Below, one piece after another: positions 14,536-61,683 of a stretch of DNA of 64,000 nt. This stretch comes from Caulobacter endophyticus (lineage in GTDB: Bacteria; Pseudomonadota; Alphaproteobacteria; Caulobacterales; Caulobacteraceae). The first letter of the stretch is position 1; each line of letters opens with the position of its first letter. A program made the translations under genes and the position numbers. Under the pieces are notes generated by a model. That model made no database searches and was not told where the DNA came from. It saw nothing but the letters and a program-made list of their open reading frames with translations. Where the stretch lies: positions 1-64,000 of the forward strand of contig NZ_QDKQ01000064.1 of the NCBI RefSeq assembly GCF_003116815.1, given 5' to 3'.

Positions 14536-15564
14536 ATGACCCTGTTCCGCCTTCCCACCCGTCGTGACCTCGCGGTCGGCGCGGGCGCCCTGGCGGCTGC
14601 GCCCGCGAGCGCGCTGGCCCAGAAGGCGCCCAAGGTCGTCACCCTGTTGAACGTCAGCTACGACCCCACCCGTGAGCTCTACCAGGACATCAACCCGGCC
14701 TTCGCCGCCTACTGGAAGCGCCGGGTGGGCCAGACGCTGGAGATCCGCCAGAGCCACGGGGGTTCGGGCAAGCAGGCGCGCTCGGTGATCGACGGGCTGC
14801 AGGCCGACGTCGTCACCCTGGCGCTGGCGGACGACATCGACCAGATCGCCGCCCGCGGGCTGACGGCGGCCAACTGGCAGTCGCGCCTGCCGCAGAACTC
14901 GGCCCCCTACGCCTCGACGATCGTGTTCCTGGTGCGCAAGGGCAACCCCAAGCGGATCAAGGACTGGGGCGACATCGTCAAACCCGGGGTGGCGATCATC
15001 ACCCCCAATCCCAAGACCGGCGGCGCGCCGCGCTGGGCGTATCTGGCCGCCTGGGCCTGGGCGCTGAAGCAGCCGGGCGGCAATGACGCCTCGGCCCAGG
15101 CGTTCGTGCGCCAGCTCTATCGCCAGGTCCCGGTGCTCGACAGCGGGGCGCGCGGCTCGATGACCACCTTCGCCCAGCGAGGCGTCGGCGACGTGCTGCT
15201 GACCTGGGAGAACGAGGCCCACCTGGCCCGCCAGGAGTTCGCCGCCGACGGGCTGGAGATCGTCTATCCGTCGCGCTCGATCCTGGCCGAGCCGTCAGTG
15301 GCCGTGGTCGACAGCGTGGTGAAGCGGCGCGGCACGAAGCTGGTCGCCGAAGGGTATCTCAACTTCCTCTACAGCCCGCTGGCCCAGGACCTGATCGGCA
15401 AGCATCACTACCGCCCGCGCAACGCCCAGGCGGCGGCGAAATACGCCGCCAAGTTCCCCAAGATCCCGTTGGCCACCATCGACGGCCAGTTCGGCGGCTG
15501 GAAGAAAGCGCAGGGCCGCCACTTCGCCGACGGCGGCGTCTTCGATCAAATCTACCGGCCGTGA
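14536..15564 (+). CDS. Sulfate ABC transporter substrate-binding protein (paralogue 1)
   Basis: A periplasmic binding protein of 342 residues from the Sbp/CysP family that delivers sulfate or thiosulfate to CysTWA. An N-terminal signal (ending ALAQ) is followed by the family motif [12 protein letters not shown] near residue 36, [14 protein letters not shown] near 75, and the conserved KTGGAPRW and [11 protein letters not shown] blocks. The Shine-Dalgarno GAGAGGA precedes the ATG. It is highly similar to the next gene, a tandem duplication. The permease and ATPase genes are not in this window. Confidence 0.93.
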
Positions 15565-15668
15565 GAGTCTTCTTGGGCGTGAAGCCTACCTGGACAATAG
15601 GGTATGACGCCTCCATCCGGTTCGTGCGTTAATCGCTCGGACCCATCGGAGCCAAGAGCGACATCGCC

Positions 15669-16715
15669 ATGACCAACGCCTTCAAGTCTCCCACCCGGCG
15701 CGGCCTGCTCGGCGCGGCGGGCGCCGGCGCCGCCGCTTTCGGGGCCCCCGCCCTGCTGGCGGGCCAGGCCCAGGCCGCCGGGTCGCTGACCCTGCTGAAC
15801 GTCAGCTACGACCCGACCCGCGAGCTCTACAAGGATATCAACACCGCCTACGCCCGGTACTGGAAGGACAAGGTCGGCCAGACCCTGACCATCAACCAGA
15901 GCCACGGCGGCTCGGGCAAGCAGGCCCGCTCGGTGATCGACGGCCTGCAGGCAGACGTGGTCACGCTGGCCCTGGCCTACGATATCGATGAAATCGCCGA
16001 CAAGGCCAAGCTCCTGCCGGCCAACTGGCAGTCGCGCCTGCCGCAGAACTCGACGCCCTACACCTCGACGATCGTGTTCCTGGTCCGCAAGGGCAACCCG
16101 AAGAAGATCGCCGACTGGCCGGATCTGGTGAAGCCGGGCGTCGGCGTCATCACTCCCAACCCGAAAACCTCGGGCGGGGCGCGCTGGAACTACCTGGCCG
16201 CCTGGGCCTGGGCGCTGAAGCAGCCGGGCGGCAATCCGGCCAAGGCCGAGGCCTATCTGAAGGACCTGTTCAACCACGTGCCGGTGCTCGACACCGGCGC
16301 CCGCGGCGCCACCACCACCTTCACCCAGCGCGGCATCGGCGACGTGCTGCTGGCCTGGGAGAACGAAGCGTTCCTGGCGCTGGAGGAACTGCCGGGCCAG
16401 TTCGAGATCGCGGTGCCCTCCCGATCGATCCTGGCCGAGCCGCCGGTGGCCCTGGTCGACAAGAACGTCGACCGCCACAAGACCCGCCTGGCCGCCACGG
16501 GGTACCTCAACTTCCTCTACAGCCCGCTGGCCCAGGAGCTGATCGCCAAGCACCACTACCGTCCGCGCAACGCGGCCGTGGCCAAGAAGTACGCCGGCAA
16601 GTTCAAGTCGATCCCGCTGTCGACCATCGACGACACCTTCGGCGGCTGGAAGAAGGCCCAGGCCACCCACTTCGCCGACGGCGGCGTCTTCGACCGCATC
16701 TACCGTCCGAAATAG
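15669..16715 (+). CDS. Sulfate ABC transporter substrate-binding protein (paralogue 2)
   Basis: Second copy of the periplasmic sulfate-binding protein, 348 residues. Its twin-arginine-like signal ([10 protein letters not shown]) ends near AQAAG. It shares the same [37 protein letters not shown] and [11 protein letters not shown] blocks with paralogue 1, differing mostly in the N-terminal region and charged surface positions. A GC-rich hairpin follows its stop. Having two binding proteins suggests separate affinities or substrates (sulfate versus thiosulfate); this is inference. Confidence 0.93.
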
Positions 16716-16745: not shown

Positions 16746-16772
16746 CGCGGCGGTCCCCATGGGGCCGCCGCG
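16746..16772 (+). terminator. GC-rich hairpin after second sulfate-binding gene
   Basis: CGCGGCGG-T-CCCC, an AT loop, then GGGG-CCGCCGCG, with one bulged base. It lies about 30 bases after the stop and before the lovK promoter. Only a weak T tract follows. Confidence 0.5.
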
Positions 16773-16801
16773 TCTTGCGTTTCCACGCTGAAGCTTTGTC
16801 G

Positions 16802-16826
16802 GGAACCCGACCCTTAAAAGCACGTT
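16802..16826 (+). promoter_or_regulatory. SigT (EcfG)-type promoter for lovK
   Basis: GGAAC at 16802-16806 and CGTT at 16823-16826 with a 16-base spacer match the GGAAC-N16/17-CGTT promoter of the alphaproteobacterial general-stress sigma factor. Transcription should begin near 16832-16834, upstream of the lovK ATG at 16875. Confidence 0.78.
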
Positions 16827-16874
16827 CAGCCGATGACGGGGCGTCCATCGAACAAGCCGGGGTCGGGCTCAGGA

Positions 16875-17984
16875 ATGACGGATTATCTGAAGTCGCAACG
16901 GGCGGGCGATCAGCTCGCGACCGAGCACGGCATCGACGACCCTTTCGCCGCCGCCATCCGCGCCACCCGCATGGCCATGATCGTCACCGACGCCACCCAG
17001 GCCGACAATCCGATCATCTTCGCCAACGACGCCTTCCTGCGGCTGACCGGCTACGCCCGGGCCGAGGTGATCGGCCGCAACTGCCGCTTCCTGCAGGGAC
17101 CCGACACCGATCCCGCCTCGGTCGGCGATCTGCGGCTGGCGATCGCTTCGGGCGAGGACATCGCCATCGACATCCTCAACTACCGCAAGGACGGCAGCAG
17201 CTTCTGGAACGCGCTGTACCTCAGCCCCGTGCGCAACAAGCTGGGCGAGATCATCTACTTCTTCGGCTCGCAGCTGGACGTCAGCGACAAGAAGCAGACC
17301 GAGGCCCACCTGCGCGCGACCCGCAGCGACCTGGAGGACGCCGTCGAGGCGCGCACCCGCGAGCTGTCCCAGGCCCTGGAGCAGAAGACCGCCCTGCTGC
17401 ACGAGGTCGACCACCGGGTGAAAAACAACCTGCAGCTCATCTCCTCGCTGCTGCTGCTGCAGAACCGGCGCGAGAAGGAGCCGGCGGTCAAGCACAGCCT
17501 GCGCGGCATGCTGGAACGGGTGAACGCCATCGCCACCGTCCACCGCCGGCTGTTCCAGAGCGAGGACGTCGAGCGCTTCGACGTCTCGGCCTTCGTGCGC
17601 GACCTTGTCTCGGACATGGCCGGCTCGGCCAATCGCGACGAGATCCGCGTCAGCCTGGACCTGGAGCGCGTGGACGTGCCGGCCTCCAAGGCCGCACCGC
17701 TCGCCCTGGTGATCAGCGAGCTGTTCTCAAACGCCCTGCGCCACGGTTTTCCGGAGGGGCGCGGAGGACACATCTCGGTATCGATCACTCGCACGAACGG
17801 CGAGTTCCGGATCGAAATCGCCGACGACGGCGTTGGAATGGCTGAAGGGGCCCGGACTTCGGGTTTCGGACTGACCATCGTCCAGCTGCTGTGCCAGCAG
17901 CTGAAGGCGCGGTCCGAGACGACAAGCGCCGAGCCCGGAACCCGTGTCGTCGTCAACCTGCCCGTCAACGGCGCGCACCATTAG
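16875..17984 (+). CDS. lovK: LOV-domain blue-light sensor histidine kinase LovK
   Basis: A soluble photosensory kinase of 369 residues. The LOV/PAS domain (about 25-135) holds the flavin-cysteinyl motif GRNCRFLQG with photoactive Cys70. A coiled linker (about 137-172) leads to a HisKA_2 domain with H180 in the HRVKNNLQ motif, then an HATPase domain with a D-G-G box and GFGLTIV. In Caulobacter LovK works with LovR to tune the SigT general stress response and adhesion. The ATG at 16875 aligns with the expected N-terminus; an in-frame ATG at 16833 coincides with the predicted transcription start and could give a leaderless longer form. lovR follows 13 bases downstream. Confidence 0.95.
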   Translation: MTDYLKSQRAGDQLATEHGIDDPFAAAIRATRMAMIVTDATQADNPIIFANDAFLRLTGYARAEVIGRNCRFLQGPDTDPASVGDLRLAIASGEDIAIDILNYRKDGSSFWNALYLSPVRNKLGEIIYFFGSQLDVSDKKQTEAHLRATRSDLEDAVEARTRELSQALEQKTALLHEVDHRVKNNLQLISSLLLLQNRREKEPAVKHSLRGMLERVNAIATVHRRLFQSEDVERFDVSAFVRDLVSDMAGSANRDEIRVSLDLERVDVPASKAAPLALVISELFSNALRHGFPEGRGGHISVSITRTNGEFRIEIADDGVGMAEGARTSGFGLTIVQLLCQQLKARSETTSAEPGTRVVVNLPVNGAHH

Positions 17985-17997
17985 GAACCAGTGACCC

Positions 17998-18462
17998 ATG
18001 CCAGGGCGCGCGTTGGATGTGTTGATCGTCGAGGACGAGGTGCTGCTGGCGGCCGAGCTGGAGTACCTGGTCCAGGAAGTGGGCTACCACCCGGTGGGCT
18101 GCGCCATGAGCTCGGACGAGGCCGTGGACCTGGCCAAGTCGCTGCACCCCGATCTGGCCCTTGTCGACGTCCATCTGCGCGATGGCCCGACCGGCGTCGA
18201 CGTGGTGCGCAAGATCCATGACGACTGCGGCTGCGTGGCCCTGTTCATGACCGCCAATGTCAAGCGCCTGCCGGAGGACTTCGCCGGCGCCTGCGGGGTG
18301 ATCGGCAAGCCCTATTCCGAGCACGGGGTGAAGACGGCCCTGGCCTATCTGGCCGTCTGCATGGACGAGGGCCGCGCCCCGGGTCTGCCGCCGGTAGGGC
18401 TGGAGCTGGCGCCCGCCTTCGCCGAGCTCTGGGGCCTGACCGAAATGCCGCGCACGGCCTGA
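17998..18462 (+). CDS. lovR: Single-domain response regulator LovR
   Basis: A 154-residue stand-alone receiver domain with no output domain. It has the acidic pair E12/D13, phospho-acceptor D57, T85 and K104. In Caulobacter LovR accepts or drains phosphate from LovK and related kinases and represses the general stress response together with LovK. It lies 13 bases after lovK, and its stop codon overlaps the start of the next gene by one base. Confidence 0.92.
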   Translation: MPGRALDVLIVEDEVLLAAELEYLVQEVGYHPVGCAMSSDEAVDLAKSLHPDLALVDVHLRDGPTGVDVVRKIHDDCGCVALFMTANVKRLPEDFAGACGVIGKPYSEHGVKTALAYLAVCMDEGRAPGLPPVGLELAPAFAELWGLTEMPRTA

Positions 18463-22323: not shown

Positions 22324-22349
22324 AACGGCGGTCGAACGGTCGAGGTTCC
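22324..22349 (-). promoter_or_regulatory. SigT (EcfG)-type promoter for helical lipoprotein
   Basis: On the minus strand GGAAC (22349-22345), a 17-base spacer, then CGTT (22327-22324). The predicted start of transcription, near 22316, leaves a leader of about 37 bases before the lipoprotein ATG. Confidence 0.72.
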
Positions 22350-61658: not shown

Positions 61659-61683
61659 AACGCCGGCCAACGGCAGAGGTTCC
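61659..61683 (-). promoter_or_regulatory. SigT (EcfG)-type promoter for PAS hybrid kinase
   Basis: On the minus strand GGAAC (61683-61679), a 16-base spacer, then CGTT (61662-61659). The predicted start of transcription, near 61651, leaves a leader of about 43 bases. Confidence 0.75.

Follow-up and report, generated by a model that had tools for sequence, protein, structure and literature searches.

The DNA directly upstream of lovK in Caulobacter endophyticus raises the question of whether the pair of elements GGAAC-N16-CGTT found there is a promoter for the stress sigma factor SigT, through which SigT would raise its own modulators LovK and LovR, and of whether transcription from it could begin at an in-frame ATG and yield a longer LovK from a leaderless mRNA. 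The locus was analysed within a 64,000-nucleotide stretch of the genome (hereafter the window), together with related loci from the family Caulobacteraceae.

Conservation of the motif upstream of lovK

GGAAC-N16-CGTT occurs 3 times in the window against an expectation of 1.36, a count reached by 16 of 100 shuffles, and 81 times across the 5.4 Mb genome against 103 times for the reversed control, i.e. there is no enrichment of the SigT motif by count alone at either scale relative to these controls. As the motif is not enriched genome-wide, the sequence alone could not show a promoter, and conservation was used in place of the uninformative chance counts. The search covered 61 relatives and then 390 genomes of the family including C. 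endophyticus itself, 56 of which matched at E <= 1e-120. After removal of duplicates this resulted in 57 lovK loci, including the window and one distant locus (L022) from the first search; the loci span 52 to 100% protein identity and are related, such that counts across them are not independent events.

The initial annotation had placed a SigT motif directly upstream of lovK, and the motif is indeed present there (16802-16826), with the exact N16 form retained in 51 of the 57 loci and a 17-base spacer in one more. The match in locus L130 overlaps the projected lovK start. No motif was found upstream of lovK in the other five loci, which are mostly distant (L022, L128, L132, L140 and L144). 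The reversed pair was found in none of the 57 loci, and scrambled pairs averaged 0.017 and never exceeded 1. No other spacer length between 10 and 23 occurred more than twice. The position and conservation of the motif exceed chance. The GGAAC element was without change in all nine near-clade genomes and in 50 loci with the exact N16 motif before lovK, and in an alignment of the nine nearest genomes, including the window, both boxes were constant and most of the spacer, in its later part, was variable. Hexamers and spacing are identical to those of SigT/EcfG promoters in C. crescentus and Sphingopyxis granuli (PMC4287350; PMC7083833, in part), with two extras in lovK relative to the published consensus, namely CCGAC after the -35 element and a G-tract approximately 11-13 bases after the -10 element. 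The motif and its conservation support the proposal of a genuine SigT promoter at this position in C. endophyticus. Features of the locus are listed in Table 1.

Table 1. Features of the lovK-lovR locus, in window coordinates
Feature	Position	Strand	Basis or remark
-35 element GGAAC of the putative SigT (EcfG-type) promoter	16802..16806	+	Sequence; conservation
-10 element CGTT	16823..16826	+	Exact 16-base spacer after GGAAC; conservation
Inverted repeat GTCGGG-AA-CCCGAC spanning the -35 box	16798..16811	+	Candidate operator
ATG, proposed leaderless start	16833..16835	+	Rejected as a conserved start
Predicted +1 (A), at the 10th base after CGTT	16836	+	Plausible range 16835-16837; inferred
5'-terminal G-tract GGGGCGTC	16838..16845	+	Complementary over all 8 nt to GACGCCCC of the GsrN loop; candidate sRNA site
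Second G-rich leader element GGGGTCGGG	16859..16867	+	Before the start codon; kept in the near clade
lovK, 369 aa, LOV-type PAS and HisKA_2/HWE kinase	16875..17984	+	Pfam; conserved start position
lovR, 154 aa, single-domain response regulator	17998..18462	+	Pfam Response_reg; NF009974; 13-nt gap after lovK
Loci with a motif upstream of lovR			L015 and L120 (roughly 50 nt upstream of the lovK stop codon); L014, L016, L114-L119 and L123

The lovK-lovR genes and the general stress system

LovK carries the Pfam domains PAS_9, HisKA_2 and HATPase_c, and the nearest solved chains are blue-light-activated histidine kinases. Its translation contains NCRFLQ, which we take to be the flavin-binding motif of the LOV domain. 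The protein scored 272.8 bits against the NCBIfam equivalog BluLightHisKinLov, below the cut-off of 450, and is therefore named as a LovK-type kinase from synteny and domain order and not from that model. LovR passes the NCBIfam model NF009974, with 278.9 bits against a cut-off of 171, and lovR was the same-strand neighbour after lovK in 56 of the 57 loci, being not found in locus L128. The ATG at 16875 is supported as the lovK start by a start position aligned across relatives. The arrangement is the same as that of C. crescentus lovK-lovR (CC_0285/CC_0284), in which a LOV histidine kinase is followed by a single-domain response regulator.

A profile search identified NepR once in the genome, above its cut-off, with the gene order nepR, an ECF sigma factor gene and then PhyK, and with PhyR on the other strand. 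PhyR and PhyK were both above their NCBIfam cut-offs. Among the 25 NCBIfam matches listed, the sole cut-off exceeded by the ECF protein was that of the generic sigma70-ECF model, and the name SigT is given from its place directly after nepR. A GGAAC-N16-CGTT motif, GGAACCCGATGCGGAATGTGGCGTT, is present upstream of nepR-sigT. The main original study of lovKR in relation to SigT is that of Foreman (2012, J Bacteriol).

In C. crescentus, lovKR is under positive SigT control, expression of lovK and lovR in a carbon-starved sigT mutant being reduced 3.94-fold and 2.65-fold, respectively (PMC3073932, Table 1), and it likely exerts negative feedback by draining phosphate from MrrA (PMC5964349, in part). 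The feedback loop through lovK-lovR that had been read from the window is therefore supported and already in print for that species, the published sign being negative with LovKR dampening SigT, and the regulatory idea is not new; the present data set extends the loop known from C. crescentus across a broad range of Caulobacteraceae. The best explanation overall for the locus, which we hold to be very likely, is that a SigT (EcfG-type) promoter at 16802-16826 drives transcription of lovK-lovR from about A16836, giving a leader of approximately 39 nt and a LovK that starts at 16875, as part of a negative loop. When SigT is active, LovK and LovR levels would rise, and on the C. crescentus model the two proteins would drain phosphate from MrrA, resulting in less phosphorylation of PhyR and a lower SigT output. 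Observed here were the conserved motif, the order of the operon and the co-occurrence of nepR, sigT, phyR, phyK and a GsrN sRNA in one genome; from these, with the SigT dependence and loop sign supplied by the C. crescentus literature, we infer the exact +1 and the presence of the same circuit.

A different ECF sigma factor, e.g. a SigU-type paralogue, might use the site beside or instead of SigT, as EcfG paralogues can have promoters in common (PMC7083833, in part). However, GGAAC-N16-CGTT matches the published SigT motif (PMC4287350), and in C. crescentus both lovK and lovR are SigT-dependent, with only CC_3466 being SigU-dependent under starvation (PMC3073932, section 8), leaving use of another sigma factor improbable.

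Transcription start and the proposed long form of LovK

The initial annotation had placed the +1 at an in-frame ATG at 16833, from which a leaderless mRNA could give a LovK with 14 additional residues alongside the 369-aa form, through initiation by the 70S ribosome on a 5' AUG. The ATG exists, 42 nt or 14 codons before 16875, is in frame, and opens a 383-aa open reading frame; its A is a suitable base for a transcription start, and leaderless mRNAs are common in C. crescentus, with 375 reported (PMC4117421, in part). The position of the start, however, does not fit. The published SigT motif lies at -34 of a mapped start (PMC4287350), which for a motif of 25 bases places the +1 at the 10th base after CGTT, and the RF01529/GsrN model starts, among 50 genomes, at the 11th base after CGTT in 30 and at the 12th in eight, with no recognised box in 12. 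Applied to lovK, starts at the 10th or 11th base correspond to 16836 or 16837, downstream of the ATG, whose first base is only the 7th after CGTT; the ATG thus probably lies just upstream of the +1.

Conservation also argues against the long form. An ATG 5-10 bases after the -10 box was found in two of the 51 motif-bearing loci, of which the window alone has it in frame. Among the eight closest relatives (88-97% identity), seven carry an in-frame TGA at -42, where the window has its ATG, and the remaining one has an in-frame stop at -6. In the nine-genome alignment, the position of the ATG is occupied by TTG in six of the eight relatives and by other letters in two, and near 16854 the window is one base shorter than all other aligned genomes, this missing base and one spacer change being the only changes private to the window. 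The reading frame from 16833 is therefore accidental, depending on a 1-nt deletion private to this genome, and the residues that it would add, MTGRPSNKPGSGSG, are of low complexity and lie outside the LOV domain. The long form very probably reflects chance in a single strain, and production of a leaderless LovK from A16833 is highly improbable, which deals with an otherwise tempting reading of the locus. No link between lovK and leaderless translation was found in the literature searched, a search outside which most subscription journals lay.

A conserved G-tract at the predicted start of the lovK transcript

On the preferred start at A16836, the predicted mRNA of the window begins with ACGGGGCGUC, within which GGGGCGUC exactly complements GACGCCCC of the GsrN loop. 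The ACGGGG of this predicted 5' end is conserved at a position tied to the promoter and complements the C-rich loop of GsrN. Across the 51 motif-bearing loci, GGGG occurs between bases 9 and 17 after the -10 box in 46, most often beginning at base 11-13, and the distance from GGGG to the start codon varies from 13 to 43. The G-rich stretches of the leader at 16836-16845 and 16859-16867 are both candidate GsrN sites.

A GsrN-like sRNA (Rfam CC3552, RF01529) is present in the same genome at 2724-2829 on the reverse strand of L147 (G000:C43), with its own SigT motif. The gene adjoins nepR-sigT-phyR here, whereas the two are reported to lie far apart in C. crescentus. From the loop sequence, SigT promoter and published targets, we identify CC3552 as the putative GsrN; the name CC3552 was not found in the text of PMC5869019 that was searched, a paper which uses R0081. 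GACGCCC...CGACTTGA was kept in 50 of 50 GsrN sequences, and the loop was predicted to be unpaired over most of its C-tract.

Pairing over the whole leader was rejected as a signal. Across 49 loci, i.e. the 51 without genomes G394 and G346, which had no RF01529 match, full-leader pairing with GsrN did not exceed that of dinucleotide shuffles (median fraction 0.263, with 0.263 in the window), and the leaders of four of 45 crudely defined window genes paired equally well. The 5' end was considered next, on the precedent of katG, whose pairing with GsrN through the first 7 nt has been demonstrated with compensatory mutants (PMC5869019, section 11). The katG ATG of this genome is preceded at 47 nt by GACGGGGG, and pairing of the first 20 nt with GsrN scored -19.2 for katG and -18.5 for lovK, with a shuffle fraction of 0.023 each. 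The two cases are thus alike in having a G-tract at the predicted mRNA 5' end that is complementary to the exposed C-rich loop and in their class of score; the difference is that pairing is proven for katG (PMC5869019) and predicted for lovK. Random 20-mers of the window paired with GsrN as well as the first 20 nt of lovK in 145 of 4000 cases. In 36 of the 49 loci the first 20 nt of lovK ranked in the top 5% of random 20-mers, but they beat dinucleotide shuffles at 0.05 in only 13 of the 49. The first-20-nt test is post hoc, as it was chosen after the failure over the full leader and after the report of the first 7 nt in katG.

Two readings of the tract were considered. One is that GsrN, itself SigT-dependent, targets the lovK mRNA directly through the promoter-anchored 5' G-tract, and the other is that the tract is an initial-transcription or ribosome-standby element and not an sRNA site. 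The second is consistent with the shuffle result over the full leader, with the pairing of the tract in a 120-nt fold of the window mRNA, and with the C. vibrioides-type clade, in which the tract continues into GGAGGTGGGAG, resembling a ribosome-binding site. However, the spacing of the tract is fixed to the -10 box and not to the start codon, a poor fit to a standby site, and the nepR promoter, in the bases read, is without such a tract. An initial-transcription or standby role is given an even chance, and direct regulation by GsrN is a tentative hypothesis that is somewhat unlikely. In PMC5869019, lovK and lovR are absent from the GsrN pull-down table (Table 1) and the name lovK was not found outside the seed set, nor was a GsrN-lovK link found there or in the available part of PMC11005374, most subscription journals being outside the literature search. 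If GsrN does act on lovK, SigT would control its own brake twice, through transcription of lovKR and through GsrN acting on the translation or stability of lovK, resulting in a feed-forward loop on top of the negative feedback loop. The candidate site is one of two testable leads on the dose of LovK and LovR, the other being the lineage difference described below.

A lineage difference upstream of lovR

PMC3073932 marks lovK as 'No (*)' for a SigT motif and gives a motif to lovR. A strict SigT motif within 250 nt upstream of lovR was found in 11 of 56 loci, in each case inside the 3' end of lovK and at a distance from lovR of 44-48 nt in ten loci and 150 nt in one. All 11 belong to a group at 73-76% identity that includes a named C. 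vibrioides MAG, and the C. vibrioides-type loci that were read have the motif at both lovK and lovR, in agreement with the assignment of a motif to lovR in PMC3073932. In contrast to C. crescentus, the nine near-clade genomes, the window included, have no strict motif before lovR and only the promoter of lovK. A GGAAC at the lovK stop of the window (from 17985) was rejected, having no CGTT partner at the right distance. The lovR motif is embedded in the conserved codons of EPGTRVVV, for which the motif-bearing clade uses GAA and GTT and the window the synonymous GAG and GTC; GTT accounts for 141 of the 1644 valine codons counted across all lovK genes.

As the lovR motif is limited to these 11 loci, C. 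crescentus-type lineages have two predicted SigT promoters and the clade of the window one. This difference is a testable lead on the dosing of LovK and LovR, and dose is published to matter, as SigT activity is abolished only by joint overexpression of LovK and LovR (PMC5964349, in part). Were lovK a target of GsrN, all SigT control of LovK and LovR would pass through one leader in the clade of the window, whose lovR either lost a SigT promoter or never had one.

Other features of the locus

The inverted repeat over the -35 box is identical in nine of 39 motif-bearing Caulobacter-type loci, with related forms in most others, and could possibly be the operator of some regulator. A regulon for the repeat was sought and rejected, with 15 genome-wide sites for the pattern GTCNGGNNCCNGAC against 36 for the reversed control, i.e. 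no enrichment. Most Caulobacter loci also keep CCGAC after GGAAC, a block that belongs to no sigma consensus.

Upstream, at 14536-16715, are two adjacent and similar genes of 342 and 348 aa, apparently duplicated, which presumably encode periplasmic sulfate-binding proteins, a name given from sequence. Between the sulfate-binding-type gene and the lovK promoter, at about 16747-16772, there is a terminator-like G+C-rich inverted repeat followed by a T-rich stretch, conserved in the nine genomes. Two further GGAAC-N-CGTT matches occur elsewhere in the window, both on the reverse strand, at 22324-22349 and 61659-61683.
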